From Reichenbachiella faecimaris (GTDB taxonomy: Bacteria; Bacteroidota; Bacteroidia; Cytophagales; Cyclobacteriaceae), in the NCBI RefSeq assembly GCF_900176375.1, contig NZ_FWYF01000004.1, positions 1-64,000 of the forward strand: a stretch of DNA of 64,000 nt. Direction: 5' to 3'. The notes beneath the pieces were generated by a model that ran no database searches, was not told the origin of the DNA, and worked only from the letters and a program-made list of their open reading frames with translations. Of the stretch, positions 2,356 to 30,565 are shown one piece after another (the first letter of the stretch is position 1; each line of letters opens with the position of its first letter). A program made the position numbers and the translations under genes.

Positions 2356-2861
2356 AAAGCTTCGATCAGGCAAACGAACACTTTGAAAAAGCAGTGAGGA
2401 AGCTCCAGGAAAACCTACAGTACCTGGCCGACCAGGGCAAGGTCAGCGATCGATTTCTAAACATGCAAAATAACATTTTGAAAACACTCATCAACTACCA
2501 ACATGAAGTAATGAATACTCTGAATGCCTATGAGCAGCTGGCCATTGATCTATCCTTGAAAAACTCAATGGAATACAAGAAGCTACTTGATGCAAAAGAA
2601 AGCTTTGAAGCGATTTGTATTATCCATGGTATCATGGATTTTCCATGTTGGTTGGCGAAAGGAAAGAGGTACTTGATTTGCGAGGCAGTAAGTCATTATC
2701 GCAATGGTGAAACACAACTCTCCTCCACTGTTATGGAGTTGGTCAATGAGCTCCCAGCTCATGAACGTGATCTCCTGTGGAGTATTTTAAATAAGAAGGC
2801 TGAGGCCAAATGGGAAAGTGAGCTCCGCGCGCTTGGTATTGAAATCAAAGCCTATGCTTGA
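2352..2861 (+). CDS. Hypothetical alpha-helical protein between HTH and VapE genes
   Basis: The longer open frame starts at 2238, but the ATG at 2352 (ATGA overlap with the preceding gene) is the better start and gives 169 aa. The protein is almost entirely predicted helix. Residues 1-75 are heptad-like (FDQANEHFEKAVRKLQENL), and a more hydrophobic middle contains CIIHGIMDFPCW. No catalytic motif is visible. It overlaps the VapE-type gene by 8 bp, so it is probably an accessory subunit or loader for that ATPase (inference from coupling only). Confidence 0.65.
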   Translation: MKSFDQANEHFEKAVRKLQENLQYLADQGKVSDRFLNMQNNILKTLINYQHEVMNTLNAYEQLAIDLSLKNSMEYKKLLDAKESFEAICIIHGIMDFPCWLAKGKRYLICEAVSHYRNGETQLSSTVMELVNELPAHERDLLWSILNKKAEAKWESELRALGIEIKAYA

Positions 2862-4104
2862 GCATCAGGAAGTCCAAAAGAATGTCAATGGCAAAAAGAA
2901 GAAACACCAGATTCTTGAAGTCAAGGATTACCTTGATCTGAAATATGAGTTTCGAAGAAACGACCTCACATTGGAGGTAGAATACCGAAAAGTTGAGGAT
3001 AAGAAATTTCAGGTACTTGATGAAGCACGGATCAATTCGATCTGGATAGAGCTGCAGGTAGATGGTTTCAAAATATCGGATGCAGTGCTTATCAAAATAT
3101 TAAACTCGCATCTGGTTAACAATCATCATCCGCTAAAGTCCTATTTTGATAGCTTGCCTAAACATGACGGAATAGATTACATTCAGAAACTTGCAGATAG
3201 CATTGAAATAGATGACGCTGCAGTCGAGAATATTCATCTGAAGGATCTCTGGAAACCTTATCTTGAAAAGTGGCTGGTAGGAAGCGTAGCGACTGTACTA
3301 GGTAAAGGAACGAACCAACTCTGTTTGATTCTGGCCGGAGGTCAGGGAGTTGGGAAAACGACCTGGCTCAATAAGCTCTGTCCTAAAGGGCTTGAAGACT
3401 TTCTCGTCTGTTCGCATATCAATCCTTCTCTCACTGATAACACTACAGCCAATTACCTGGCCGAAAAATGGTTTGTGAATATTGATGACCAGCTGGAAAC
3501 GATCTTTGGCAAGGACTTCAACAGTATGAAGGCCATCATCACCGCTCCATTTGTGACAAATCGGAAGACCTGGCACAAGTTCAGCCGAAAGCGTGATCGG
3601 GTCTGCAGCTTTATGGGTAGTGTGAACAATACCCAATTTCTAACAGATACTGAGAATAGAAGATACCTAGTCTTTAAAGTTAGAAAGGTTCATTTTGAGC
3701 ATAAAGTGGAAATGGTCAAAGTCTGGTCACAGGCCTTGCATTTACTGGAGCAAGGATTTACCTATTGGTTCCAGCAAGAGGAAATGCGAGTACTCAATGT
3801 GGTCAACAATATGTTCAGGCAAAGCTCTCCGGAGGAGGACTGGCTGATCCGATTGTATGAACCTTGCACAGCTGATAATCCACAAGCTACTTTTCTAATG
3901 CCCTCCGAAATCCTCACCAAACTCAATGCCTACTCCAATATGAAGCTTTCGATCAGAAAGCTGAACATGGCCATGGAAAAGCTAGGCTTTACCAACAAAG
4001 TATCTAAGCGGATCCACGGGCAACCTCGATACGTCCATCCTGTTATCGAACACCTGACTGGCTCAGACACGCAATATCAACACGATCTTCGCTCAGAAGT
4101 CTAG
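2854..4104 (+). CDS. VapE/VirE-family P-loop ATPase
   Basis: 416 aa from the ATG at 2854. This is the VirE (virulence-associated E) P-loop family common in integrative elements and phage satellites. The Walker A motif is GGQGVGKTT (162-170). A Walker B-like strand WFVNIDD (206-212) and a sensor-like segment SFMGSVNNTQFLTD ending in ENRRYLV follow, all typical of this superfamily-3-like helicase/primase-associated group. The C-terminal third (MPSEILTKLNAYSN, LGFTNKVSKR) looks like a winged-helix DNA-binding part. No primase domain is fused, unlike many relatives. The probable role is replication initiation or unwinding for the excised element, consistent with the repeat tract just downstream. 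Confidence 0.8.
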   Translation: MLEHQEVQKNVNGKKKKHQILEVKDYLDLKYEFRRNDLTLEVEYRKVEDKKFQVLDEARINSIWIELQVDGFKISDAVLIKILNSHLVNNHHPLKSYFDSLPKHDGIDYIQKLADSIEIDDAAVENIHLKDLWKPYLEKWLVGSVATVLGKGTNQLCLILAGGQGVGKTTWLNKLCPKGLEDFLVCSHINPSLTDNTTANYLAEKWFVNIDDQLETIFGKDFNSMKAIITAPFVTNRKTWHKFSRKRDRVCSFMGSVNNTQFLTDTENRRYLVFKVRKVHFEHKVEMVKVWSQALHLLEQGFTYWFQQEEMRVLNVVNNMFRQSSPEEDWLIRLYEPCTADNPQATFLMPSEILTKLNAYSNMKLSIRKLNMAMEKLGFTNKVSKRIHGQPRYVHPVIEHLTGSDTQYQHDLRSEV

Positions 4105-5969: not shown

Positions 5970-6226
5970 AAAAATCAATTAAAGACTTAGGGATCGTCCA
6001 AAGGATGAAATCCCCAACTCCAAAATTCTTCCGGGTACTAAGGAATATTGGTCTTGCATTGGCAGCAGCTAGTGGTGCAGTGTTAGCCGCTCCGATTGCT
6101 TTGCCTGCTGCTTTAGTTACGGCAGCTACTTATGTGGCGGTCGCTGGTGGAGTGCTTACAGCTGTAAGTCAGGCCACGGTGGATGAGGAGGAGTTCAATC
6201 TTGATCAGGCCGTCAAGAATTTGTAA
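5966..6226 (+). CDS. Small Ala-rich membrane protein
   Basis: 86 aa, starting at an ATGA overlap with the upstream gene. A basic N-terminus (MKKSIKDLGIVQRMKSPTPK) is followed by two hydrophobic Ala/Gly-rich segments (about 28-50 and 52-70), then an acidic tail (VDEEEFNLDQAVKNL). Size, charge pattern and company (DUF5675, coiled-coil membrane protein) make a holin-like pore former conceivable. Nothing proves it. A good terminator follows at 6248-6275. Confidence 0.65.
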   Translation: MKKSIKDLGIVQRMKSPTPKFFRVLRNIGLALAAASGAVLAAPIALPAALVTAATYVAVAGGVLTAVSQATVDEEEFNLDQAVKNL

Positions 6227-6247
6227 GGGTGGTCACAGCATTGCATC

Positions 6248-6275
6248 AAGGCAGGATTCGAAAGGGTTCTGCCTT
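6248..6275 (+). terminator. Rho-independent terminator of the left module
   Basis: AAGGCAG (6248-6254) pairs with CTGCCTT (6269-6275) and is followed by a run of T. It ends the 4551-6226 transcription unit. From 6300 to 6420 there is a purine-rich tract with no credible gene. Confidence 0.75.
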
Positions 6276-6518
6276 TTTTATTCCCTATCATTATTATTTC
6301 CCAAAAGAGAAGAAAGAAAAAGAACCCACCGAAGCAGGCAAGAAAAAGAAAAAAGAGAAAGCGATTGCCCAGGCTGGAAGGAAGAAATGCAAGGAGGAAC
6401 GGAATAAATGGATTGTGTGATGGGTTGAGGGTTTATGCCGTAGTTCCTTGCTTTTCTATGCGGGTTGGTTTGTGTGACAGCCTAACTTGGCGGCCTCTTT
6501 TTTGTTTGACATTCATCA

Positions 6519-7136
6519 TCAGCCAATGTGGTTCTCCATTTTATGATCATTTAAATACTGATTTAATCGATCATATTTAAGGTCTTTCAGCTTATTCTTC
6601 TGCCTTAAAGTGTCGATCATTTGTCTTAATGATCTGTTCAACCCGTCTTTAGAAACCATATTGTTAAACCATTCTAGACCGTTTGTATTGGGGGTATCAG
6701 AAAACTTCTTGGTGTAGGTTATAATATCAACCAATCCGGATTCTGGAATTATATCCCAGGTAATGCATAGCATATTTATGGCTGATAGTAGTTCCTGGTT
6801 AAAAGGGTTGAGTTTACCAAAATTATCTGAGCCTTTGGATAAGCCTGTACTTGATGAAGAACCATTGCTATCAATAGCTAACGGATTAAAAAGAGTAAGA
6901 GCTTTGTGATTAATGATGTCCAAAAATTCATTGGCACAGTGAGTACCGACAAAGAAGTACTTCGGTTTAATATTGTAGTCTCCTCTTGGTCGATACGAAA
7001 AAATGTAGTATTTGTCATCCAAAGGCCCGCAACAACCTTCTTTGGTTTGACCTTCCAGAAGTTGAATGTAGTTTACTGGCTGGATATAGTACTGACTACA
7101 AATTTCTTCCTTTCTTTTTCTAGTTCTGCAATTCAT
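6519..7136 (-). CDS. Hypothetical protein with Cys/His-containing N-terminus
   Basis: 205 aa. The N-terminal 70 residues look conserved-like and possibly metal-binding: CRTRKRKEEI at the start, EGCCGPLDD near 34, an FSYRPRGDYNI segment and FFVGTHCANEF near 66. A Ser/Asn-rich linker (88-105) and a helical C-terminal half follow. No family was recognised. It is isolated between the left module and the G-rich non-coding stretch, on the strand of the defence-like operon, so it may be another accessory gene of the island. Confidence 0.55.
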   Translation of the reverse strand: MNCRTRKRKEEICSQYYIQPVNYIQLLEGQTKEGCCGPLDDKYYIFSYRPRGDYNIKPKYFFVGTHCANEFLDIINHKALTLFNPLAIDSNGSSSSTGLSKGSDNFGKLNPFNQELLSAINMLCITWDIIPESGLVDIITYTKKFSDTPNTNGLEWFNNMVSKDGLNRSLRQMIDTLRQKNKLKDLKYDRLNQYLNDHKMENHIG

Positions 7137-7159
7137 ATTGATTGATAATTCCTGTATGT

Positions 7160-8050
7160 ATTAAGTTAGGTCGGGAACGCAGGAAAACCAAAAACGGCTG
7201 GGCGAAGGCTGTGGAACGTAGTGTAATAGACGAACGACCAAGCCAGCCGGAGAGAGCCTTTGGTTGGGGATGTGGGCAGGAAGGTGAACGTAGGCTTGCG
7301 AGCCGCCTGCGAGTGGAGCAAGGGTGCCAGGCCGAGAATTCCGCTTATGGCGGATGAAGGACTGGCTATGTGTGAAGTGGAATGCAGGGCTTTTGTAATT
7401 TTTTCAATCTTCACAAAAGCCCGGAGTGGAACGGAACTACACAAAGGCTGGCGTGATTTTTTGCCTTTTGCGCATTGGCCTGGTATAAGCGATGGATTGT
7501 GCCATGGATACCATAGGGTTGATGCAAAAAGCATGACAGCCTGCAGCCCGCAGCGACCCGCAGGCGAGCACAAACACTGGCAGCCGGTGGATGCGTTGCG
7601 GCTGAACGGAACGAAGCGTAGCGAAGAGTAGAGAGGCGGCAAAAGCAGACAGAGTAGGCTGCCGTGAGGATGACAACCGAGATGCAAGCAGCATGACAGG
7701 CTCGGAGCTTCAGCAGAGACCTGCAAGGCGGCATAGCTTATTTTCTGTCCTTTTAAAAAGATAACTCTTCCAGAAAATGTGCTGTGATGGCCTGGAATGA
7801 TGCTATGCCGAGGGCGAAAGACGAACACCGCTTTTCCTGCGTGTTGGGGTGCGGTGGGAAAAAGTAAGTGTGGCACGGTATGGAATGCATCCCGATAAAG
7901 ATCGGGAGGAATGGAGTAACGGGCTACTCTTGCTGTGGGTTCCTGGAGGCTTGTAAGTGCAGCGCAGCGGAATGAGCAGGCTGGAGGATGGGAATGGGCG
8001 GACTGTCAATCTCCTTAAAAAGGGATAACCTTAATATCCGATCTTAATAG
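7160..8050 (+). other. G- and purine-rich non-coding stretch with strong hairpins (candidate structured RNA or transfer origin)
   Basis: About 900 bp clearly richer in G+C than both flanks, with a purine bias on the plus strand and no plausible gene. Hairpins include GGGCTTTTGT (7387-7396) with ACAAAAGCCC (7413-7422), GCCTGC (7539-7544) with GCAGGC, GGTAT with ATACC around 7491-7513, and TCCCGAT-AAAG-ATCGGGA (7890-7907). GATGCAA(n)AGCATGACAG occurs at 7521 and 7681, exactly 160 bp apart, and GAACG-containing stretches recur. The long minus-strand frame (7166-7876) has an unlikely composition and is read as spurious. The options are a large structured RNA, an oriT used by a helper element, or a decayed repeat. 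The strand given is that of the purine bias. Confidence 0.45.
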
Positions 8051-8051
8051 T

Positions 8052-11000
8052 TTATGCTGCAAAGTAATTTATATTAACAAACACGTGATGAATCACAGTT
8101 TCATTTTCATGTACAGATCGTGCAATCCTAATGGCTGAATTCTGATAATTGAACAATGAAGTTACGTTCTCACAAGCTTCATACTCATACCCGATTGGAT
8201 ATTCTGCACTAGGTATTATGCTACTGATATATTTTTGCCAATTCTTTTTAGACTTATCCTTTGGATCTAAATCATAAACTAGAATAATGAAATTTTCTCT
8301 TTGGTGGTAATAATTAAAAATCTTTTCTAAATGACTTTTTGCAGGAGCTGGAGTTCTATATACAAAAGCTTCACAGACACAAAACAGTTCTTTATTAGCA
8401 TCATGAATTGGCAAATCCCTTTCTCCTGGTTGCTTTTTTGTAGTCTTGTTTTTAGGATCGGAAAATGCTCCTCTAGATTGTGCTCCAACATACCAACCCC
8501 ATGGATTTATTCTTGAATCCAAACCCAGCTCAATTATATCGTTGTACTTGTCTTCACTTCCTATATCAGATATAGAAACAACCTTGTCGAGCATTCTACT
8601 GGCAGCTCTCGCAACTTCTTTAGTCAGAAATGCTCCAAGAGTCCTATTACCATTTACATATTCCGGAAATATCTCAATTAGCTTAGAGGGAGGACTGGTA
8701 AAAATTCTTTTGTAGTATGCATTGAGTAATTGAACATCGTCAATACCTCCAACTTTAGCTTTAAGTGTTTTAATGAACTCAATTCCTTCATCTCCTGAAA
8801 ATTGATGATAATTTTCAGCTTCATCCAGAATCATTGAAGCCTCTTCTATTTTTTTTCTTTCAATGAGGCTTTCAATTTTCACTTCAAGGACATCCGGTAA
8901 CAATTGATATGGCATCTCCAATTCAGAAAAAACGCTATCCAATTCATCATGCTCGTCCAGTTTGAGCAGTATATATAATTTATTAGTAAAGAATGTTGCC
9001 CCTAAAGCCTCTATGTCTAGTTCTTGTTGTTGGGAGGAATATACTTTCCACTCTTCTAGAGCTTCTTTATAGATTTTTGAATCATCGCTGACTTTAGCTA
9101 TATTAATTTTAGCTGCCATCTGATTTAATGCAAAAACAGCAAATTGAGGATATTGTTCACTCAATTGTTTGAATATGACATATGAGGATTTCGGATCTTT
9201 TTCCAGCCTTATTAATGCCCTGTAAAACTGCTTGTGATCACGATAGGACAGTCCTCTTACTGAATGGATTGGTGAGTCCGGTTCTTTAATGCTATTCAGT
9301 TCCTGTTCCTCATTCTGAAAGTAAGCCAACAGCATCTTGGTTTGATAAAGCTGAACCTCATATTCCCTGTTCTTTTTTGATACTTTCTTTTCCCAAAACT
9401 CAACTACCTGATTAATCTCATTAATCAATTGGGGATATTTGCTTATTTCAAGGAGGGTCTGTTGAACCTCTGGAATCCAACGAGTCTCTTCTAAAAAGGC
9501 TTTAATATCTGATTGTTGTATCTTCTCTATAAGTTTTTGTTTTACCCCTTCTGAAGTTACCCATTCTGCAATTGTTAATATTTTGACAATATCCTGCGTT
9601 TCTATGATGGCCTGAATAATTTGTTCTTTTCCGGAAAACCAATTTAACGCCCTGGCTACTTGTGGAAGTAACGCTTCTTTTTCAGAGTTCTTAAAAGCCA
9701 ACTCTTTGTTATAATCAAACAGATCAACACGCCCTTCTTCCGGCACATCCTTGATATGACTTTTTAAATAATCAATAATCTGCTGTTCTACTCTTGATTT
9801 TATTTCCTGAATTTCATCTTTTTCAAAGCCGTAAGGAATGCTTGGCAACACCAATTGTCGAAGGACTTGAAGCAATACCCCAATGTGAGTTCTTAATTTA
9901 TCAGCGGTGAAATGATTCTCTTTATTGTAGAATTCCGAAGTGGAGTCAAAATAAAATCGAGGTTCAAGAAAACTATTCAGCTTCTGTTGTTTATAAATGA
10001 AGTAAATAGGATAAATCCATTCAATGTATTCCAGTCTTTCAATTTTCTCGCTCCATAGGGGTAGCCCCTTTTCTTCTTTCTTCTCGAAGAAATTGTATTT
10101 TTCTATTTTTGTAACCTCTACGCGTTCAATATAAAGCTTGAAAAAAGAATTAGTGAGTGTATTTAAATCTGGAGGCTTGATCTCAAACTGACTTTTGTAC
10201 TTCCAGTAAGTAGAGCATTTCATCAACCATGACAGCCCACCCCACTGAAGCATAGGAAAATTCACTGTTCCATTATTATGCCGTGTTTTGGATGGTAGAT
10301 TGATGAAAAGTTGTACCAGCTCATTAAACAATCTGGGGAATAGAAATTGATTACTTACTCCGTGCACTCTATAATTATGTAGGGAGCTATCTTCAATCAA
10401 AGAAAGCACTGCTTTTTCTTTTTCTACTTTCTGTTTTTGACTTAATTTTTCTGCATGCTTCTGTCGGTTGTATGGTATATCATATTTTTGGGAATTAAGT
10501 TGTCTGTAAATCTGAAAGATTAACATAGAAGCAACACCATTCTTCACAACTGAACGAATTGAAAAAAGAGCCAGTTCCATGGATTTTGACCAGAGCTTTT
10601 TGTGGATTGTTTCTTTGTCTTCATGCAGTAGGTACTCGCCAATTCTATCAATGAATTGAAAAGCTAAGGAGGTGTATTGAGCGTCTTTTATTAGATAGGG
10701 TATAAACTCCCTTCGACACATGATAACAAAACATTTTATTTCCCAAAGCAGAGTTGGCTTGGTCAATGATTTTTCGAGAAGTTCGAAAATTCTTCGACAA
10801 TGATAAATATTAGGATTGTCCTGATCTTCTGTATCCTCTCTCTCCAATTCATAATCATGAGTAACAATTACCTTTATTAGAAAAGAAAGTTCATCTCTTG
10901 AACTTTGCCCATGCAGATAGGTAGTATGAGCTTTTTCTTCCCAGTTGGCTAAACTTTCGAATAATTCAAAGTGATCTGTATTGTTTAGTGAAAAATCATC

Positions 11001-12095
11001 GTACTCTTCACGGCTATGGAATAAAGTTTGAACTTCACGTGAACCAATGTCTCCATCAATATTAACCTTTTTGAACTCTGATTCCGTTCCATCCAAATCG
11101 GACTCACTAATCACAAGATTACAAGCTGCATCTAAGAACTTCTTTTTTGATTGATCAATTACATGACTCAAAAAATTCGAGGACCATTCCCAATAGAGTA
11201 TTTGTCTGAGAAGTCTTTTTACTCTTTCTTGGTCGTCAGAAAAACCATCATCCTCAACTAATAATTGCCAGTAAAAAGCAGTGATATGATCACTTAAGGT
11301 TGACCAGTAGCTGATCTTGACATTATGAAAATTTAAATAGTAGAACTCTCCCTTTTCTTTAATAAGTTGTTCTTCAACTAATTTTTTAATCGAGGCTGTT
11401 TTTGTATAAAATTGTTTATAAGTCTGGTGAAGCTCTTGAAAATCACTTTTAATAATTTTCAGTCCCTTGTCCTCATGGACAGATATACTTTCCTTGTATG
11501 CGGCAAGGAATTGAAAATCCTCCCAGTGCTCAAGGTAAGGCTTGAAGTAATAGTTGATATTGGAAATTTCTACATGATCATCAGATAAAGAAAGCCATCT
11601 GGATTCGAATAATCCCTTTTCGTCTAAAACCAGATTGTTTCGTTTTTCATATTCACTTCTTATTTCGTCAAATTCTGTTTTAGGTAATTTCTCTTTGCCT
11701 TCTTTACCTTCAGCAAATTCTTCAAACAGAAACTTTAATTCATTCTTGAAATCGGATATTCCACTAAAAGTGTGACAAGCAGAAGATACTGTCCCAGCTA
11801 TTTTTATATTGCCCAGGACATTTCTCAACCAGTATTTTTGAAAGAGGGTGTCTATATCGATTTGTTTACCACTTCGCTCTTCATAGTCTTTTTTGAACTG
11901 GTTGAATTCTTCTAATGTAAGCTCTTGTTCCTTGGGTTTTGCCAGATGAATAGCTTTTGCAAAGAACAATGAGGCGTTCCATTTAAAATTTTCTTCTATA
12001 GCCTTTTGATCTGCATGATTAATACTTCTATCAATGGTATGGGTTGATATATAACTTATTAATTCCTTGAACTTTTCCTGTTGATCATAATTCAT
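8052..12095 (-). CDS. Very large defence-operon protein of unknown fold (1347 aa)
   Basis: The last and largest gene of the six-gene minus-strand operon, 25 bp after the HNH gene. It has no signal peptide, membrane helix, Walker motif or helicase motif. The bulk is helical, with segments resembling degenerate helical repeats around 900-1130 (for example YRALIRLEKDPKSSYVIFK). The C-terminal 110 residues differ: RDLPIHDANKE, then CEAFVYRT, HLEKIFNYYHQRE and FIILVYDLDP. This strand-helix-strand pattern resembles some PD-(D/E)XK-like or effector C-terminal domains, though the usual Lys is not evident. A role as scaffold plus effector of the neighbouring nuclease and methyltransferase is inferred. 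I recognise no named family. Confidence 0.75.
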   Translation of the reverse strand: MNYDQQEKFKELISYISTHTIDRSINHADQKAIEENFKWNASLFFAKAIHLAKPKEQELTLEEFNQFKKDYEERSGKQIDIDTLFQKYWLRNVLGNIKIAGTVSSACHTFSGISDFKNELKFLFEEFAEGKEGKEKLPKTEFDEIRSEYEKRNNLVLDEKGLFESRWLSLSDDHVEISNINYYFKPYLEHWEDFQFLAAYKESISVHEDKGLKIIKSDFQELHQTYKQFYTKTASIKKLVEEQLIKEKGEFYYLNFHNVKISYWSTLSDHITAFYWQLLVEDDGFSDDQERVKRLLRQILYWEWSSNFLSHVIDQSKKKFLDAACNLVISESDLDGTESEFKKVNIDGDIGSREVQTLFHSREEYDDFSLNNTDHFELFESLANWEEKAHTTYLHGQSSRDELSFLIKVIVTHDYELEREDTEDQDNPNIYHCRRIFELLEKSLTKPTLLWEIKCFVIMCRREFIPYLIKDAQYTSLAFQFIDRIGEYLLHEDKETIHKKLWSKSMELALFSIRSVVKNGVASMLIFQIYRQLNSQKYDIPYNRQKHAEKLSQKQKVEKEKAVLSLIEDSSLHNYRVHGVSNQFLFPRLFNELVQLFINLPSKTRHNNGTVNFPMLQWGGLSWLMKCSTYWKYKSQFEIKPPDLNTLTNSFFKLYIERVEVTKIEKYNFFEKKEEKGLPLWSEKIERLEYIEWIYPIYFIYKQQKLNSFLEPRFYFDSTSEFYNKENHFTADKLRTHIGVLLQVLRQLVLPSIPYGFEKDEIQEIKSRVEQQIIDYLKSHIKDVPEEGRVDLFDYNKELAFKNSEKEALLPQVARALNWFSGKEQIIQAIIETQDIVKILTIAEWVTSEGVKQKLIEKIQQSDIKAFLEETRWIPEVQQTLLEISKYPQLINEINQVVEFWEKKVSKKNREYEVQLYQTKMLLAYFQNEEQELNSIKEPDSPIHSVRGLSYRDHKQFYRALIRLEKDPKSSYVIFKQLSEQYPQFAVFALNQMAAKINIAKVSDDSKIYKEALEEWKVYSSQQQELDIEALGATFFTNKLYILLKLDEHDELDSVFSELEMPYQLLPDVLEVKIESLIERKKIEEASMILDEAENYHQFSGDEGIEFIKTLKAKVGGIDDVQLLNAYYKRIFTSPPSKLIEIFPEYVNGNRTLGAFLTKEVARAASRMLDKVVSISDIGSEDKYNDIIELGLDSRINPWGWYVGAQSRGAFSDPKNKTTKKQPGERDLPIHDANKELFCVCEAFVYRTPAPAKSHLEKIFNYYHQRENFIILVYDLDPKDKSKKNWQKYISSIIPSAEYPIGYEYEACENVTSLFNYQNSAIRIARSVHENETVIHHVFVNINYFAA

Positions 12096-12120
12096 ATTCT
12101 AAGCTATTTACAGTGTTGAA

Positions 12121-12768
12121 TCAAATGCCATTTTTAACATTGAATAAGGAATTGTGGTGATTTATGAAATCATTTGAAAGTTCATGCCTTTTCAATTTAA
12201 GTGAATTGCGTTCTAATCGAATTGCTTTTAAGTCTAACTGAACATGATGATTGGGGCAAACACATATCATATTGTCAAGTCGATCTTTCCCATTATACGG
12301 TTTTCCTAGTGGCACTATGTGGTGTGCTTCTGAATAGAATCGTTTGTTACCTAAAGCTATCTTAGTGCCACATATTTGGCATGTATTGTCATAAAGCTTT
12401 TTAAGTCGATCGACTAAAGGCTTTTTCCTGAGAATGGTATTGACTTCTCTCAAAACTCTTACAGTTTCTTCAAAGCTGTCCTTAATTGTATCTTGAGAAT
12501 CAATTCCTATAATTAACCTCTGTTCAAATGCGGTGAACTTTCGATATTCATCTAAGCTCTCTATACCATCTTTAATAAACAGATCTTTATTCGATTGCAA
12601 GTAGCGATGACTTGAATAGAGTTTTTCATTTTGGAATACTATATATCCGTTTTTATCAAAAAGAACTCCGGGGAATTTTTTCAGATTATGGTACCACTTT
12701 CCACTTTCATGATACAAAGCATGTTTGGCCTCTATTCTTAGGAGTTTGTTAAGATACTTTCCATCCAT
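12121..12768 (-). CDS. HNH endonuclease
   Basis: 215 aa. The C-terminal HNH domain (about 128-185) has CQIC (130-133) and CVCPNH (169-174) as the zinc-holding pairs, the catalytic EAHHIVPLG (148-155) and NHHVQLD. It belongs to the group fused to or placed beside restriction-like systems. The N-terminal 100 residues (with LFDKNGYIVFQNEKLY) probably provide DNA or partner recognition. It lies 5 bp from the upstream gene and 25 bp from the downstream one. With a methyltransferase and a helicase-nuclease in the same operon it is likely the DNA-cutting component, or one of two. Confidence 0.85.
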   Translation of the reverse strand: MDGKYLNKLLRIEAKHALYHESGKWYHNLKKFPGVLFDKNGYIVFQNEKLYSSHRYLQSNKDLFIKDGIESLDEYRKFTAFEQRLIIGIDSQDTIKDSFEETVRVLREVNTILRKKPLVDRLKKLYDNTCQICGTKIALGNKRFYSEAHHIVPLGKPYNGKDRLDNMICVCPNHHVQLDLKAIRLERNSLKLKRHELSNDFINHHNSLFNVKNGI

Positions 12769-12773
12769 GTAGA

Positions 12774-13562
12774 TTACTTGAATATGGAATATAATGCTAG
12801 AATCAAGCCTCCAAGAGTCGCTACCCAGCCAATTAAGTTGAATACGGGATGAGAGATGACATCCAAAAACATAGCATATCGATTTTTGTTCTGTATCGTA
12901 AGTTTCCTATTAATAAGTTTTTTAACTGCCTTCTTTAGGAATTCTACTTTACAATCCACTGAATCAATCACAGATTTAAAGTTCTTAGATTCAAATTCAC
13001 TTGATTCAATCTCCTTAGCGAGATAAACAGGTTGTTCTACCCCTGAATTGTTGGAAGTCATCAGTTCCTTAAATTGATCTGGTCCATTGACGAATCCTTC
13101 TCCATACATGCCTTCTAAGATTATGTATAGGCTGTGTTTACTATGTGAAGGGATTTCATGGTAATCATTTAGCCCTTCAAATAATTTCTCATACCTATGC
13201 TTTATAGCCTCAAACCCAAAATGAATGTTTTTCATATCCCAGTGAACCCAAATGCAGTGATCATGTCTTTTGACAAAATCATTGAAGGATTTAAGAATGC
13301 GAAGTTCCAACTCTCTGTAAGAGTCCTGAATCTGATCTTTAGGAATTCCAGCTTTATCTGCTTCGAAATGAATAGCAAATTGTTTATCTATCTTGTCATC
13401 AAGTGATTTAATTACAATTGAGGTGATTATTGGAGAAATGTTGCCGTAATCATCATCATATGTTTGACTCTGAGAGTAGTGGACACAAAGAACTTTGGAA
13501 GGATCTTCAACCAGTTTCCCCAAATTCTTTAAAGCAATTTTTCGGTCTTTATATGCTCCCAT
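12774..13562 (-). CDS. Unknown protein with C-terminal membrane anchor
   Basis: 262 aa. The soluble part holds a striking segment, WVHWDMKNIHFGFEAIKHRY (about 114-133), flanked by strands such as VLCVHYSQS and a YGEGFV motif. This vaguely resembles the acidic-residue layout of DEDD-type exonucleases, but I cannot confirm that fold. A single hydrophobic helix ends the protein (about 241-261, VFNLIGWVATLGGLILALY). It starts 1 bp after the helicase gene stops, so it is a tight operon member. Membrane anchoring suggests that activity or sensing is tied to the inner membrane. Confidence 0.65.
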   Translation of the reverse strand: MGAYKDRKIALKNLGKLVEDPSKVLCVHYSQSQTYDDDYGNISPIITSIVIKSLDDKIDKQFAIHFEADKAGIPKDQIQDSYRELELRILKSFNDFVKRHDHCIWVHWDMKNIHFGFEAIKHRYEKLFEGLNDYHEIPSHSKHSLYIILEGMYGEGFVNGPDQFKELMTSNNSGVEQPVYLAKEIESSEFESKNFKSVIDSVDCKVEFLKKAVKKLINRKLTIQNKNRYAMFLDVISHPVFNLIGWVATLGGLILALYSIFK

Positions 13563-13563
13563 A

Positions 13564-16407
13564 CTATCTCTTGACCTTTATATCGTGCTGAACCCTATTG
13601 GAGCACAAACGAACCTGGAAGCATTCTTGACAAGTTTTCTTTTCTTCTGTCCTAAGAAATCTTTCTGACCAAATCAAGTCGACTGCATCCCTAATTTTAC
13701 TCTCAATTGAATTCAGATCAGATTCATATAATTTTTCAGGGGTTTTAACCTTGTTTTCACCTATTACATAGGTCATGATGTAATCCGCTATTTCTCCTGT
13801 CAATTCTCTGTGACCCAGAGCATAAAGCTTCAATTGATCTTTCGTAATTGGTAAATCGGCACTTTCTTCATCACTTTTAAACTCAATAATGGTAGTCTCA
13901 TATTTCCCATCACTACCCACTTTCTTTATCAAGTCAATTCTGCCTAAAACCAAAATGCTGTCATCGACTTTATATTGGATATCCTGCTCAACGAATTCTA
14001 TATGAGAAAAATCATCCTTAGTATCCTCATAGTACTCTGTTACATTTTTTCTCACCTTATCCCATAGACGTGGTTTCAAAATAGTAGAGTTAGTCAAATA
14101 GGGGAAGTGTGTTTGTCTATCTACTACCTCGTTGACTTCTTCTTTACTCATTGATTCACCTTCCTTACCTCTCTTATGAAGCTCCATCAGGCAATTATGA
14201 AAAGATCGTCCTACTCCCATACGCTGATTTAATGGATAACGAAATCCAAAAACAGAAATAAGCTTGAACCGGTAAGGGCATTCAAAAATATCTTTGAGTG
14301 TGGTAAAATCTAAAGCAATATTTTTAACCTTTTCCTTGGACTGCTGATCGATTTTAGTAAAGCTCGAGAAGTCTTGCTTGTGATCTGAGATCAGAATTGG
14401 AAAAGAACCAATTTTTGCTCGAGTTAACTCCTGTATATAATCAGACTCTACTTTGTAGAGCCTATTATTAAGATCAGGTGCTTGAGATAAGAGAAGGAAC
14501 TTTTGACTTCTAGTTAGAGCTACATAAAGGAGCCTTCTTTCGTCTTCCTTGTCTGGATCACCCTCATATCTAGATTGCTCTTCAATTAATTCTCTATCCA
14601 AGAAATGCCAAACATTTAAACCTCCTCTTTTTTTAGAAGGCAAGTAGTTATTATTTAAACCAGGTATTAATACTACCGGAAATTCCAATCCTTTTGCCTG
14701 ATGGATGGTCATTATTTGAACGGCATTTGGTGTGGTATAAGGATTGTTTAGCCACCCCTCAGGATAGTAGTCTCTGGCTACATAATTGATAAAACTTAAA
14801 AAGCTGAACAAGTGAAAGCTTGGACTAGAGCTATTGAAATTAATCTCTTCAAAATCATTTATTACTTGACTGAATTTTCCAAGATTAAAGAACATGATTT
14901 CAGCCCTTTCTTTAGTTCTCTTATGAAGATCAGGGTCTGTATGATCAATGAATGAGTCTTCATATATTTCAGCAAGGCTTATGAAGTCCCAAAGAATATT
15001 TTGAAGTGAATATTCCCAATTAGTTTCGACTTCTGGCAGCTTCGGAAATTTTGTATCTAGGTCATTTAAGGCTATTTCAAGTCTATCATTATCAATATTG
15101 TTATTGGGAAGCTTTTGCCATAATTCCTTCAATTCCGATCTCTCCAAATCGCCATACAAGTAAGTAAATAAACCAAGGGCAGCTTCTATTTCTCTTGTTT
15201 CAAAGAGCTGGTTAACTCCAGCTGTGATATATGGAATATTATGCCTTTCAAGTGCCTCAACTATAGTTTCAGCCTTACTCCAAGTCCTTAGAAGGATACT
15301 GATATCAGAAAATGTAATACCACGAGTCTCTTCGTCATCCGTAAATGGCACACCTAAAATATTATCTATATAATTAGCTATAGCTTCATTTTCATCAGTC
15401 ACAGAATCGTAACGGTTATAAAGAATGTCTTGACCTTTAGTGAAATTTTGTAGGCCGCCAGACTTCATCTCTTTATTTGGTATTCTCTTTTGGTTATTTG
15501 AAATTAGAGTCTCAGCTATCTTTGTTATACCATCGGAACTTCGATAATTGGTAGATAGTGGGATGCTTTTAGTCGCAGAATTGTCAAATTTCGATTCAAA
15601 ATCAATGATGTAGCGATTATTACTTCCTCTCCATTGATAAATGTTTTGATCATCATCCCCAACTACAACGAGCTTACATTGACTTACTTCTTGAATCCTA
15701 TTTATTAACCGTTCTTGGATTGGATTAATGTCCTGATATTCATCTACGATAAGGAATTTTAAATCACTCTTTATTCTAGCTGATAGGTTAGAGCTTGCCT
15801 CCATGCATTCCATGGCCTTTTCCATTATCATGGAAAAATCAAAGTACTTTTTGCTTTTAAGAGTCTTTTCGTACTGAGCCTTAGCTCGAGTTAGGTTTTC
15901 AGGAAGTTCCTGTCTATCGGACTCTCTGATGATGTCCATTATTTGGACAAATAAAGAAGTATCAATAAACCTCCTTAATGGAACAGTCGAGTTAGAGAGT
16001 TTCTTGACTTCTTTCATCCCAATTGTATCATAGTGCTTATCTATGAAAAGCTTGAGCTTTATTTCGTCAAGAACTGAGAAGCTCTGGTATTCATATTCAT
16101 TTTCTTGAAGTGCCTTTAGACACCAACCATGAATTGTACCGATGTACATATTTGCCATACCCCGGTGATTCCCAACATTATTCAGAATTTTATTCTTTAA
16201 TTCTGCTGCTGCTTTTTCAGTATAGGTAAATGCTATAATATTCTCAGGAGCAACATCGAATCCATTTATAGGATCAAGTAAATAAGCCACTTTACCTGCT
16301 ACTGTAGTAGTCTTACCAGACCCTGCACAAGCAACAATTCTTAAATGCTTATCATTTGTGAGAATAGCATCTTGTTGATTTGGTGAATATTTGGATAAGT
16401 CTATCAT
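13564..16407 (-). CDS. UvrD/PcrA-like helicase with C-terminal PD-(D/E)XK-type nuclease region
   Basis: 947 aa. Superfamily 1 motifs in order: Walker A ACAGSGKTTT (26-35), DEYQD (222-226), GDDDQNIYQWRG (250-261), LSTNYRSS, IMTIHQAKGLEFPVVLIPG and ERRLLYVALTRS. Past about residue 730 an AddB/Cas4-like nuclease region follows: FHNCLMELHKRG, a core GRIDLIKK, then TIIEFKSDEES, and cysteines near the end (CQECFQVRLC) that may hold an Fe-S cluster. It should unwind and degrade DNA. The housekeeping role (AddA-like) is unlikely because it is embedded between a methyltransferase and two unknown genes of an island. It lies 59 bp from the methyltransferase gene. Confidence 0.88.
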   Translation of the reverse strand: MIDLSKYSPNQQDAILTNDKHLRIVACAGSGKTTTVAGKVAYLLDPINGFDVAPENIIAFTYTEKAAAELKNKILNNVGNHRGMANMYIGTIHGWCLKALQENEYEYQSFSVLDEIKLKLFIDKHYDTIGMKEVKKLSNSTVPLRRFIDTSLFVQIMDIIRESDRQELPENLTRAKAQYEKTLKSKKYFDFSMIMEKAMECMEASSNLSARIKSDLKFLIVDEYQDINPIQERLINRIQEVSQCKLVVVGDDDQNIYQWRGSNNRYIIDFESKFDNSATKSIPLSTNYRSSDGITKIAETLISNNQKRIPNKEMKSGGLQNFTKGQDILYNRYDSVTDENEAIANYIDNILGVPFTDDEETRGITFSDISILLRTWSKAETIVEALERHNIPYITAGVNQLFETREIEAALGLFTYLYGDLERSELKELWQKLPNNNIDNDRLEIALNDLDTKFPKLPEVETNWEYSLQNILWDFISLAEIYEDSFIDHTDPDLHKRTKERAEIMFFNLGKFSQVINDFEEINFNSSSPSFHLFSFLSFINYVARDYYPEGWLNNPYTTPNAVQIMTIHQAKGLEFPVVLIPGLNNNYLPSKKRGGLNVWHFLDRELIEEQSRYEGDPDKEDERRLLYVALTRSQKFLLLSQAPDLNNRLYKVESDYIQELTRAKIGSFPILISDHKQDFSSFTKIDQQSKEKVKNIALDFTTLKDIFECPYRFKLISVFGFRYPLNQRMGVGRSFHNCLMELHKRGKEGESMSKEEVNEVVDRQTHFPYLTNSTILKPRLWDKVRKNVTEYYEDTKDDFSHIEFVEQDIQYKVDDSILVLGRIDLIKKVGSDGKYETTIIEFKSDEESADLPITKDQLKLYALGHRELTGEIADYIMTYVIGENKVKTPEKLYESDLNSIESKIRDAVDLIWSERFLRTEEKKTCQECFQVRLCSNRVQHDIKVKR

Positions 16408-16466
16408 TGAGTAGCGAATTATGGTATGCTAAGTGATCATGATAAGAACTCAGCAAACTGCTATGG

Positions 16467-17786
16467 TTAAGGAGTCTTAAAAATCAGTATTTTCTCTTTG
16501 CTCATTAGATCTGAAAAGTTGTTTCTACCAGGCATCCGTTTGCTTAATATGTCTCTTTCAAGGTCGGTGATAAGTTCTACCTCTTTTGTTCTCATAAGGT
16601 CTATTAGAATCAAGTCATTTTTGACGAGTCTTTTGTTGACATTGCGGTTACCAATTGTCCAAACCATAAAGGCTCCTTTGTGAAGCTTTGTCATCATGGT
16701 GTCTATTGACTTATCTAAGTCATGAAAGAAGTTGATAATTTTTCTGGCTTTCTTTTTTTCATCACTATCGAATAGCTCAAACAGTTGTTTCAGTGTTGGT
16801 GATGCTTTGAATAAACTCTCTTGTGTTTCCAGGAAATTAGGAATCATTTTGCCACCTAGACTATTTGAATCGATTTCCATTGTGGTCTTGAGGTAATTGA
16901 ACTCAATATTTGGATCGATATCCTCGGAAGGAATCCATTGTAAGGGCAAAAAAGAGAATTGCCCATAAGTAACTGTAGTTTGATTGTCACCGTATGGCGG
17001 TGAAGTAACCAGCAAGTTGAATTTTTTATCAGTGTTCAGCTTTTTATGAGAATCCCCCCATACAACTTCGGCAGATTTCTTGTAATTATCATGTTCTATC
17101 AGATCATTTTCGAATAAAACGGAGCAATAATCATTGACATCTTTTATACTTCTTGTCACTATTGAGAAAAACATATCAATAGCGGACAAATCTCTGCTTT
17201 GGATCTCATCCAAAGACCTCATATGCAGTTTGAAAGTTGATGTTCTGTCATTACTTACCAAACGAACTACTTCAGCAAGTGCAACCCAAAAAAACTTTCT
17301 AATCTTCAAGGTAGGTTCCTGACAAATAGCTTGGTGAATTTTTGAGAGTTCAATCTGAACCTCCTCTTTGAACCATTTATCAATATTGTAAAAATGGACT
17401 TCACTAGAATTTGAAGTGTCAACATCTACTCTTACTCTTAACAACTCCTTTGCGTTTTCCAATTCAGCTAATGAATAATAACTGATTTTTACCTGGCTAA
17501 TAAGAAGTGACAATGGGTTGATGTCTTGACCAAAAACGTTTAATCCATATTTCATGCCGGTGACAAGAGTGTTCGATGCTCCCATAAAAGGATCAATGAG
17601 AGACACTTCACCTGGAAAGGTTTCTGAAAGACTTTTGATAATAGGCTCTTGCACAGATGGCACCATCATAGCTGGATAATTCAGAATGCTTCGAGCGAAA
17701 TCACCTCTATTATAGTTCTGGCCATTAAGCACTTCACTGCTTATTGCTCCTAATGTTTCTTTTATGTTTATATCAGATATTATCAC
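16467..17786 (-). CDS. DNA methyltransferase (N4-cytosine/N6-adenine type)
   Basis: 439 aa. The SAM-binding motif I is DPFMGASNT (65-73), followed by GQDINPLS (86-93). The catalytic motif IV is TSPPYGDN (261-268), the SPPY form typical of N4-cytosine and some N6-adenine amino-methyltransferases. Motif I precedes motif IV, and a long insert between them (100-255) probably recognises the target. It overlaps the XRE regulator by 4 bp (ATGA). As the only methyltransferase in the operon it most likely marks host DNA so that the helicase-nuclease or HNH protein spares it. Confidence 0.87.
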   Translation of the reverse strand: MIISDINIKETLGAISSEVLNGQNYNRGDFARSILNYPAMMVPSVQEPIIKSLSETFPGEVSLIDPFMGASNTLVTGMKYGLNVFGQDINPLSLLISQVKISYYSLAELENAKELLRVRVDVDTSNSSEVHFYNIDKWFKEEVQIELSKIHQAICQEPTLKIRKFFWVALAEVVRLVSNDRTSTFKLHMRSLDEIQSRDLSAIDMFFSIVTRSIKDVNDYCSVLFENDLIEHDNYKKSAEVVWGDSHKKLNTDKKFNLLVTSPPYGDNQTTVTYGQFSFLPLQWIPSEDIDPNIEFNYLKTTMEIDSNSLGGKMIPNFLETQESLFKASPTLKQLFELFDSDEKKKARKIINFFHDLDKSIDTMMTKLHKGAFMVWTIGNRNVNKRLVKNDLILIDLMRTKEVELITDLERDILSKRMPGRNNFSDLMSKEKILIFKTP

Positions 17787-17998
17787 CTTTGGTTAATTGT
17801 TGAAACGATCAGTTCCTTTACATCTACATTCAATGTATCCGCAATTTCTACTAAAGCTTCAAGCGAAGGTTGTCTTCTATTGGTACACCAAGTGGAAATC
17901 GTAGAAACATTCTTATTCATATTTTCAGCTAACCATTTATTCGTCTTGCCCTTCTCCGCTAAGACAGCCTTGAGTCTATTAATTGTCTTTTCAGCCAT
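17783..17998 (-). CDS. XRE-family repressor-like regulator of the defence operon
   Basis: 71 aa from the ATG at 17998; a longer frame opens with TTG at 18028 but would include the promoter -7 box. The HTH is compact: LKAVLAEKGKTNKWLAENM, NVSTISTWCTNRRQPSLEAL, then VEIADTLNVDVKELI. It is the first gene of the operon and is coupled to the methyltransferase by ATGA, like the controller proteins of restriction-modification systems that delay nuclease expression until DNA is methylated (established for C proteins; inferred here). Confidence 0.82.
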   Translation of the reverse strand: MAEKTINRLKAVLAEKGKTNKWLAENMNKNVSTISTWCTNRRQPSLEALVEIADTLNVDVKELIVSTINQR

Positions 17999-18024: not shown

Positions 18025-18146
18025 TCAATTAATGAAGGCGATAGCAAGCAGTTATTAAATGGGCGTTTGATTAATGATGGATCAAGTTTCTATTTACAAA
18101 AAGATACACAATTCATCCCCTTTTGAAAACGAAAACTACTGGCATT

Positions 18147-18410
18147 TCATACCTTATTCCTCCTAATCACCTCCACAATATCTTCGTACTCATAAAGGAT
18201 CACGCCTGAAATTTTGGAGTGGGGTAGTATTCCTTTGTCACGGAGGTTGTGGAGAGTACCGGCACTTATACAGAGGAGGTCTTGTACGTCCTGGCTTCTG
18301 AGCCATTTGCGTTTTGGGGTTCCGTGGGTTTCGAATAAGTTCTTAATCTCCTGCAGGAGCTCTTCTTTGAAGAAGTATAGGTCTTCTGTGGTGACAACAT
18401 TAGCTGGCAT
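18147..18410 (-). CDS. Helix-turn-helix (HTH_17) protein
   Basis: 87 aa. An N-terminal helix (FFKEELLQEIKNLFETHG) precedes an excisionase/MerR-type HTH (WLRSQDVQDLLCISAGTL, then a YEDIVEVIRRNK helix). These small proteins are very common next to insertion sites and RteC genes in Bacteroidota. Its place between the defence operon and the RteC part of the island suggests a mobility or cargo regulator. No target site could be assigned. Confidence 0.78.
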   Translation of the reverse strand: MPANVVTTEDLYFFKEELLQEIKNLFETHGTPKRKWLRSQDVQDLLCISAGTLHNLRDKGILPHSKISGVILYEYEDIVEVIRRNKV

Positions 18411-29416: not shown

Positions 29417-30565
29417 TTATGCAATCCTCATTCCTTTGTCTCCGGGTCCCAGGTCTGGAATCCTTTCTGCAGCCTCCTTCCTTCGCTGATCAATCACTTT
29501 TGCATAGATCTGTGTGGTCTTGACGTTCTTGTGGTTGAGAAGTTTGGAAACGGTGTAGATGTCTGTGCCCAGGGACAACTGCAGTGTTGCGTAAGTGTGA
29601 CGGAAACAATGGAAGGTGATCTTCTTTGTGATGCCGGCACGCATGACCCATTCGGAGAGCTTGAGGTTTGTCCATGCTGAATACTTCAGTCCCTGAAAGA
29701 TCTTGTCTTCCTTGTTCCTGGGATAGCCCAGGATGTCAACGGCCTGTTGCGCGATGTTTAAAGTCTGTGGTCGATCTGTCTTTTCATGGATGAACCGGAT
29801 AAAGTGGCCGTTGATTTCAGAGTATTGTATTTCACCCCACGTCAGATTGGTTAAGTCGCTCCAACGAAGGCCTGTCAAGGCCGAGAAGATAGCTGCTACC
29901 TTCAGGACAGGGAATTCACATTCGGTACTAAACAGAGCTCTGAGTTCTTCTAATGTGAGAAACTCACGCTCTGTTTCTTTTTGCCTGATAGCATCCACCC
30001 GGAGCATGTAGTTCTCTTTGAGATAGCCTTTCTTGAATGCCTCCTCAACAGCCACTGAGAATTTGCTGAAATAGGAGGCTTGGCTATTTTGTGAGAGCTT
30101 CCTGGATTCGCTCTTGATGCTGGTAGTGGTTTGAAGGTAATTTTTGAAGTCTTCACAAAACGCCTTGTCAATATCCGTGGTAGAGCACTGGCCATGGGTA
30201 AATCGCTCCAGGTAATTGTATGTGCTGAGCCAGTTTCCATGGTTGCCATCACTTTTCCATCGCTGGCCAGTGAGCTTTTTGAAGAACGCCAAAAAGTCTA
30301 TTTGCTTGGTGTCCTTGAAGATGAAATCAAACCGGTTGGCCTGGATATCCAATTGCCTGGATGAACGGATGCTATCGGCCTGGATCTTCGTCTCCTTGTT
30401 GTGGTTCTTTTCGAGTACTCCACGTGGCTTTTCGTAAAGGTAGAGTTTTAGGAATTCTCTTCGGGTGGATTTCTTCGTTTCTGGATCCACAAGAGGAGGA
30501 TAGAAGTCCAGGTAAAGACTAATCATGCCTTTGGATATTTTCTTTTGGCGTAGGGTGACTTTCAT
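29417..30565 (-). CDS. Tyrosine recombinase (phage integrase SAM-like type)
   Basis: 382 aa, full length for the Bacteroidota family. N-terminal arm-binding domain (1-60, [20 protein letters not shown]), SAM-like core-binding domain (about 88-195) and catalytic domain (200-382). Catalytic residues: Arg 234 in [12 protein letters not shown] (H319, R322), H345 in LLNHKNV and Tyr 354 in TQIYAKV. It lies about 600 bp from attR and most likely inserted the island at mnmE. It overlaps the HTH gene by 4 bp (ATGA). A 3'-terminal copy is at 25121-25340. Confidence 0.93.

Follow-up and report, generated by a model that had tools for sequence, protein, structure and literature searches.

The window analyzed here, the first 64,000 nucleotides of contig NZ_FWYF01000004.1 from Reichenbachiella faecimaris, carries at positions 8052 to 17998 a run of six open reading frames (ORFs) that all lie on the minus strand and whose summed lengths make up 99.1% of the interval. 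In gene order they code for a small XRE-family regulator, a DNA methyltransferase (MTase), a UvrD-like helicase, a protein of 262 amino acids (aa), an HNH endonuclease (HNH215) and a giant protein of 1347 aa. Successive genes are separated by -4, 59, 1, 5 and 25 base pairs (bp), and the GC content is even, at about 0.35, across 8-18 kb. Gaps of a few bp suggest that the genes are co-transcribed. The original prediction held that all six genes form a single undescribed defence system. Its coordinates and gaps were all reproduced, as were its calls of a methyltransferase with an SPPY motif, a UvrD protein with a nuclease-like C-terminus and an HNH nuclease. Its unifying claim did not stand, in that only the MTase, UvrD and 262-aa genes recur together, and the run appears instead to combine two or more defence modules.

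The three-gene core is present in the same order at six loci, namely the window, L002, L003, L004, L005 and L078. A pattern scan with the 262-aa protein through a collection of 84,980 species, a method that reaches close relatives only, returned L002 to L005, and in all four the MTase and UvrD genes directly precede the 262-aa gene. Profile searches for the family of this protein matched 4 of 395 phylum genomes (the window genome, G374, G203 and, weakly, G065), 3 of 395 class genomes (the window genome, G627 and G618) and, among 35 genomes of the family of G618, G618 itself. Besides the window genome, only G618 among these carries the core, at locus L078, where UvrD is 46% identical to the window UvrD (BLAST) and the 262-aa relative was confirmed by profile comparison (probability 99.5). 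For the window, L002, L003, L004, L005 and L078, respectively, the MTase-UvrD gaps are 59, 19, 64, 2, -1 and 2 bp, and the gaps between UvrD and the 262-aa gene are 1, 3, 2, -1, -1 and 1 bp. Pairwise identities over the six loci span 48-84% for UvrD and 24-84% for the 262-aa protein. Because L003 is cut by a contig end inside the 262-aa gene and the contig of L002 ends about 730 bp past it, the downstream genes of these two loci cannot be judged. Another candidate, L030 (262-aa profile E 4.8e-4, no BLAST support), was excluded from the relatives.

Table 1. Genes of the six-gene run and flanking features in the window.
Feature	Position	Strand	Remarks
XRE/HTH_3 regulator, 71 aa	17783..17998	-	Pfam HTH_3 1e-9; overlaps MTase by 4 bp; optional, no constant partner
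MTase, 439 aa, GTG start	16467..17786	-	DPFMG and SPPY; PADLOC MTase_II 5e-87; core gene 1
UvrD-Cas4 fusion, 947 aa	13564..16407	-	SF1 helicase and RecB/Cas4-type nuclease with four cysteines; core gene 2
262-aa protein, phrog_8766 family	12774..13562	-	Predicted DEDD-exonuclease-like (RNase H-like) fold and C-terminal membrane helix; core gene 3
HNH endonuclease (HNH215), 215 aa	12121..12768	-	Pfam HNH_2 4e-8; putative exchangeable cutter or passenger
Giant protein, 1347 aa	8052..12095	-	Separate module; different upstream genes elsewhere
HTH_17 gene	18147-18410		Adjoins six-gene run
Tyrosine integrase	29417-30565		About 11.4 kb from six-gene run
VapE-like protein	2818-4104		Other side of region from integrase

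As judged from its motifs, the UvrD protein belongs to the UvrD-Cas4 fusions; its helicase and nuclease motifs and the set of four cysteines are all intact. It matches the Pfam families UvrD-helicase (6e-51) and UvrD_C (7e-40) and carries GSGKT at residue 29 and DEYQD at residue 222. The Cas4 part is weak by profile (Pfam Cas_Cas4 at an expectation value, E, of 0.035 and TIGR00372 at E 4e-4, both under the curated cut-off) but clear by motifs. In an alignment of ten homologues, comprising the window protein, those of L002-L005 and plasmid relatives L036-L040, the motifs GxGK[ST], DE[YF]QD and H..KG align, and the superfamily 1 (SF1) helicase motifs are intact. All ten share helicase residues G29, G31, K32, D222, E223 and Q225, nuclease residues H737, D825, K844, Q858 and Y862, and cysteines C710, C926, C929 and C935.

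The wider family keeps similar company on plasmids, where 2198 records matched UvrD, 20 of them over more than 80% of the query. In each of the five relatives examined among 15 listed, methyltransferase or restriction genes lie within two genes of UvrD: an MspI endonuclease with a cytosine MTase, an MvaI/BcnI endonuclease with an S-adenosylmethionine-dependent methyltransferase, a DNA methyltransferase with a DEAD helicase and, in two cases, an MTase with a TnsA-type protein. The 262-aa protein has no BLAST match in any of these five loci. A UvrD-Cas4 fusion family beside DNA methyltransferases, in Mod/Res and Dcm contexts, was described in 2017 and predicted from context to be an ancillary defence component (PMC5704561). 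Because the part of that paper devoted to UvrD-Cas4 covers the fusion family, its contexts and its predicted role, we regard the window locus as a variant of a known arrangement. The window shares with those loci a single protein that joins an SF1 UvrD to a Cas4-like domain beside DNA methyltransferases, but it differs in two respects. First, the contexts given there are type III Mod/Res and Dcm (with Vsr in several), whereas the window MTase has an SPPY motif and matches type II models. Second, window-type loci have a phrog_8766-type gene fixed after UvrD, of which the UvrD-Cas4 section of PMC5704561 makes no mention. No named system in PADLOC (2023 version, with systems named later outside its coverage) matched the whole set, in line with the claim of an undescribed composition, but UvrD-Cas4 beside MTases had already been predicted to be a defence component.

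The 262-aa protein has no family match at E 0.1 in Pfam, PADLOC or NCBIfam. It does match phrog_8766 (5.5e-31; residues 2-225 on profile positions 2-215 of 262), a family listed in PHROGs as having unknown function. An AlphaFold2 model built with 34 sequences has a predicted local distance difference test (pLDDT) score of 89.2 and a predicted template modelling (pTM) score of 0.84; a four-sequence model has a pLDDT of 59. When the model was compared to the PDB with Foldseek, the best match had E 1.9e-4, probability 1.00, TMq 0.47 and a root-mean-square deviation (rmsd) of 9.7. Each of the seven matches at E ≤0.001 is to a KOD/Tgo-type B-family polymerase, an enzyme class with a DEDD exonuclease domain. 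Matches in a viral library were to proteins of the RNase H-like, exonuclease and polymerase types, one at E ≤0.001, and a 262-aa profile searched against PDB sequences gave a best E of 0.54. The predicted model supports a DEDD-exonuclease-like (RNase H-like) fold class for the protein, but not the details of the fold, because the rmsd values are high (about 8-10 Å for the seven polymerase matches).

DEDD enzymes carry a D-x-E motif on the first strand and an aspartate on the last helix. The 262-aa family instead has H28-Y29 on the first strand and S201-xxx-K205 on the last helix, and the canonical acid motifs are absent by sequence. Residues H28, Y29, E86, L90, H107, W108, M110, G116, F117, R123, N171, E186, S201 and K205 are invariant in 34 of 34 aligned rows, and the divergent L078 copy keeps HY, the glutamate at 186 and S-xxx-K, but not HW.M. 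A larger set of 41 rows, from which identical rows were removed and L003, L077 and L078 left out, has a hydrophobic stretch within the last 70 residues in 37 rows (mean Kyte-Doolittle value of at least 1.6 over 19 residues). In an Agrobacterium pusense plasmid (L016:4875-8810), a gene of this family directly follows one annotated as a TrlF-family AAA-like ATPase, possibly a second partner type of the family.

The MTase has DPFMG at residue 65 and SPPY at residue 262, falls just below the Pfam cut-off for N6_N4_Mtase (25.6 versus 26.7 bits), matches phrog_18146 (DNA methyltransferase) at 4e-31 and finds a single weak match in the PDB. Its history appears to differ from that of its neighbors. 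Between the window and L003, MTase identity is 55.6%, versus 84.2% for UvrD and 83.7% for the 262-aa protein, and between the window and L004 the corresponding values are 28.4%, 68.8% and 53.9%. Conversely, L005 and L078 share 70.7% in the MTase versus 49.3% in UvrD and 25.2% in the 262-aa protein. Since it is in some pairs less and in others more similar than UvrD and the 262-aa protein are, the MTase has probably been exchanged relative to the neighboring genes. A split of the window, L002 and L003 from L004, L005 and L078 is common to all three trees, and the branch at this split measures 1.46 substitutions per site for the MTase, 0.10 for UvrD and 0.18 for the 262-aa protein. The window and L003 join in the UvrD (support 1.000) and 262-aa (0.954) trees, not in the MTase tree (0.867). 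Drawn from six loci, this evidence for exchange is good but not final, and faster MTase evolution would be a partial alternative. Relatives of the MTase with 28.9-32.0% identity over 92-96% of the query stand beside an MvaI/BcnI endonuclease and a helix-turn-helix (HTH) gene on two plasmids from lactic acid bacteria. A different partner is seen on a Hymenobacter monticola plasmid (L079:4926-8828), where an 842-aa protein annotated as ATP-binding is encoded 30 bp beyond an MTase relative of 41.9% identity.

Downstream of the core, the window and L005 have an HNH gene and L004 a piece of one, but not the same gene each time. HNH215 carries CxxC, HH and CPNHH motifs, and its residues 109-186 are closest in the PDB to TagI (6ghs, E 6e-11), with a further match to 6ghc at 9e-5. 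Its N-terminal stretch of about 90 aa has no family match above cut-off in Pfam, PADLOC or NCBIfam. HNH215 thus resembles the type IV HNH enzymes TagI and EcoKMcrA in the HNH part only, and its N-terminal region finds no counterpart in their other domains. Among 12 plasmid relatives, one carries a YDG/SRA annotation. Among eight genomes of other kinds, HNH215 was found in G000 (the window genome) and, through weak matches confined to the HNH part, in G445 and G374. In L005, a 256-aa HNH gene lies 231 bp past the 262-aa gene. Its product scores 7e-95 against HNH models of PADLOC and 3e-43 against one for a type II restriction enzyme. In L004, a 114-aa ORF that begins 11 bp past the 262-aa gene corresponds to the first 114 residues of an HNH protein from another locus, L012 (38.6% identity). 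No further match to the rest of that protein follows downstream, and a single weak one (E 0.008) is on the other strand, at a distance of about 8 kb. HNH215 was also considered as a homologue of the L005 or L012 HNH proteins, and no significant BLAST match was found.

The XRE gene, proposed originally as a member of the system, has a homologue at only one of the five other core loci, L078 (44.8% identity), where it lies on the opposite strand. None was found in L002-L005 by tblastn at E 1, and an HTH-like 140-aa ORF recognized by inspection in L002 is unrelated to it. With a TTG start, the listed XRE ORF of the window is 81 aa and reaches position 18028.

The giant protein has no match in Pfam, PADLOC or NCBIfam (E 0.1) or in PHROGs, none was found in phages, plasmids or viral contigs, and its profile gave a best E of 1.7 against PDB sequences. 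Matches occur in 4 of 296 phylum genomes, 4 of 395 class genomes and 3 of 239 genomes of the family of G057; the first two counts include the window genome, all three include G057, and one match among the 239 is short and doubtful. Besides the window, intact giants are encoded at L011, L012, L032 and L086, none of them with the core. Broken copies (L013, L031) were left out of this count, and L085 (giant profile E 4.8e-5 over 157 positions, with an internal stop) was not counted. The giant was found in none of the four genomes of L002-L005 (the same model matches G000 in another search), and the 262-aa family was found in none of the five other genomes with giant sequences, with G000 again positive. 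The giant and the core, joined in the original prediction, were thus always separated outside the window in the genomes examined.

What precedes the giant differs from genome to genome. In L012:6472-16268 (G057), PtuA and PtuB of Septu, the HNH protein and a 583-aa orphan are followed by the giant, with gaps of 6, 2, 49 and 20 bp. In L032, genes for a mad8-like protein, a methylase resembling mad2, RadC and a type II MTase lead to the giant 32 bp on, with a PDC-M62 pair on the other strand. In L086:204-14458 (G881), a four-gene run that includes a 1098-aa Walker A protein comes before a giant that overlaps it by 4 bp. By inspection, we take the genes upstream of this giant to be an OLD-like and UvrD-like pair (Gabija-like) followed by a Wadjet-like run; PDB sequence searches with three of the proteins gave no meaningful match and hence no confirmation of these names. 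In L011, a RadC-like gene, a gap of 89 bp and the giant are followed by an orphan 599-aa gene. When the seven window proteins were searched by tblastn against L011, L012, L013, L031, L032 and L086, only the giant was matched, plus a weak UvrD match in L086. We conclude from these contexts that the giant is probably an independent module that follows other, mostly defence-related, genes. Near its C-terminus, GExD is present in 5 of 6 aligned sequences (the L013 piece stops short of it), followed by CEAF and later by HxxK in all six (L031 reads HCEK). The GExD...CEAF pattern is reminiscent of PD-(D/E)XK nucleases.

These observations can be accommodated by a reading in which two modules stand side by side, the first with a restriction-modification-type mechanism, and we hold it with moderate confidence; the doubt attaches mainly to the mechanism. 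The first module, comprising the MTase, UvrD-Cas4 and 262-aa genes, is recognized by recurring gene association, motif integrity, predicted fold class and discordant MTase identities. In this cassette, the MTase would methylate host DNA as a self mark. Unmarked DNA would perhaps first be cut by a locus-specific endonuclease, such as the HNH gene product here and in L005, and UvrD-Cas4 would then load on, unwind and shred the unmarked DNA in the manner of RecBCD/AddAB. The 262-aa protein, with its canonical DEDD acids missing, could serve as a membrane-tethered subunit that binds DNA ends or recruits other components. HNH215 might be the cutter of the first module or a third, type IV-like unit. 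The second module would be the giant, as an independent defence-island protein that might be a large sensor ending in a nuclease-like domain. Homology and context support a DNA-targeting role in defence, but not one six-gene system.

Several observations weigh against parts of this reading. Of the five other core loci, four came from searching with the 262-aa protein itself. MTase exchange is argued from identities and branch lengths, with no strong conflict of topology. Positions 69 (D/E), 86 (E) and 186 (E) of the 262-aa protein are acidic in 41 of 41 rows, so a rearranged active site is possible. As a cutter, HNH215 is no constant partner: it was found in none of the four core genomes of L002-L005 (G000 positive), an unrelated HNH gene stands in L005 and a mere piece in L004, and L078 has no HNH215 match. 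The XRE homologue of L078 is followed instead, on the strand opposite to the core, by a 391-aa ORF that resembles PADLOC PDC-S18 (4e-15). Some of the four genomes that lack the giant and HNH215 are metagenome-assembled and may be incomplete, and the tentative nuclease reading of the giant draws on a motif pattern. Finally, distant relatives of the 262-aa protein occur in prophages that lack UvrD-Cas4, and for this reason the protein may act by itself.

One rival account dispenses with the separate endonuclease. In a BREX- or type III-like scheme, the MTase would be the specificity subunit, and UvrD-Cas4 and the 262-aa protein together the restriction machine. MTase identities that vary independently of the other two proteins, the lack of an intact HNH gene beside the L004 core and the common association of UvrD-Cas4 with Mod/Res in the contexts given by PMC5704561 would all suit this scheme. 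However, the MTase also has relatives that are paired with ordinary MvaI/BcnI endonucleases, L005 has its HNH gene close downstream, and both MTase types might recognize one same site. We consider this scheme rather unlikely.

We give a similarly low rating to the proposal that a restriction-modification operon captured the 262-aa protein, which would be an independent exclusion protein of the lysogeny type that acts alone at the membrane. As a single query in viral contigs the protein found no relative, and a 10-row profile found relatives in 32 viral contigs, with others in eight phage records and five plasmids. Neither UvrD947 nor MTase439 has a match in any of the 32 viral loci, at least seven of which start within about 50 bases of the gene and so leave one side unseen. 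Among eight divergent loci (L014-L018, L028, L029 and L077), a UvrD-like match was obtained only in L029, for a 665-aa gene on the other strand; the L015 record has an SF1 helicase annotated about 4 kb upstream that has no BLAST match to UvrD947. In Streptococcus phage Javan10 (L073), a phrog_8766 member sits in the lysogeny module on the repressor/integrase strand, a usual place for exclusion genes. Set against this proposal, the genes for the four relatives of at least 45% identity and for the divergent L078 copy all stand immediately behind UvrD-Cas4, either 1-3 bp from it or with a 1-bp overlap.

A bolder reading, to which we assign a still smaller chance, makes the 262-aa protein a membrane-tethered, repurposed DEDD-fold coupler of UvrD-Cas4 to incoming DNA, and so a means of methylation-dependent restriction at the membrane. 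It would add the giant, of about 1350 aa, as a portable protein placed behind Septu, MADS-like/MTase, apparently Gabija/Wadjet-like genes and this cassette, unrelated systems to which it would lend a shared sensor or effector. Least probable is a single operon of six genes whose products work together, for although the shared strand, dense coding, gaps of -4 to 59 bp and even GC could reflect one transcript, this account is rejected on the distribution of the giant, HNH215 and the 262-aa family, in that no other genome examined has core and giant together, the four core genomes of L002-L005 gave no HNH215 match, and the giant follows different genes in each genome.

Comparison with other named systems gave partial likenesses. 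Type II systems of the MvaI/BcnI kind share with the window a related MTase and a small HTH gene, but no such endonuclease is among the six genes, which have UvrD-Cas4 and the 262-aa protein instead. As in Gabija, the window UvrD matches GajB models (best 1.6e-61, among the best 25 of 50 PADLOC families), but it matches PcrA better (5.8e-72) and carries a Cas4-like domain. No GajA match was found for the six proteins other than UvrD, and the best 25 of 50 families for UvrD are GajB and RTasHel only. The same six proteins have no match at E 0.1 to PtuA or PtuB of Septu in PADLOC, nor to PglZ/BrxC or DrmA/DrmB of BREX and DISARM, and none of the latter is in the best 25 of 50 for UvrD. The DEDD 3'-5' exonuclease domains of B-family polymerases, RNase T and CAF1 share the predicted fold class of the 262-aa protein, whose invariant residues are other than their acid motifs.

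An apparently novel six-gene system is in this way resolved into testable units. UvrD-Cas4 proteins, whose defence role is predicted from context, gain a further context and a fixed third partner. The phrog_8766 family, a prophage and plasmid family of unknown function, gains a predicted fold class in which canonical active-site motifs are replaced. The giant represents a family of large proteins encoded repeatedly downstream of defence genes within the class to which the window genome belongs.

The region around the run has features of mobile DNA. The island setting claimed for these genes is plausible because the HTH_17 gene adjoins the run and a tyrosine integrase gene lies at some distance from it, and this integrase and the VapE-like protein that flank the region are likely parts of mobile elements. 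In L003:902-2381, the core is downstream of an HTH gene that is 51% identical to the HTH_17 gene of the window and of a P-loop gene that is DnaC-like by inspection, and for this reason the two cores may be carried by the same kind of element. A promoter scan was uninformative (33 sites versus 37.4 expected), a tRNA scan of eight loci found none, and no PF04471 (Mrr_cat) match was found in the genome. Just past the giant, the window is GC-rich at 6519-8009, with overlapping ORFs on both strands, and the GC content is 0.46 in 6001-8000 versus 0.35 in 8001-10000.

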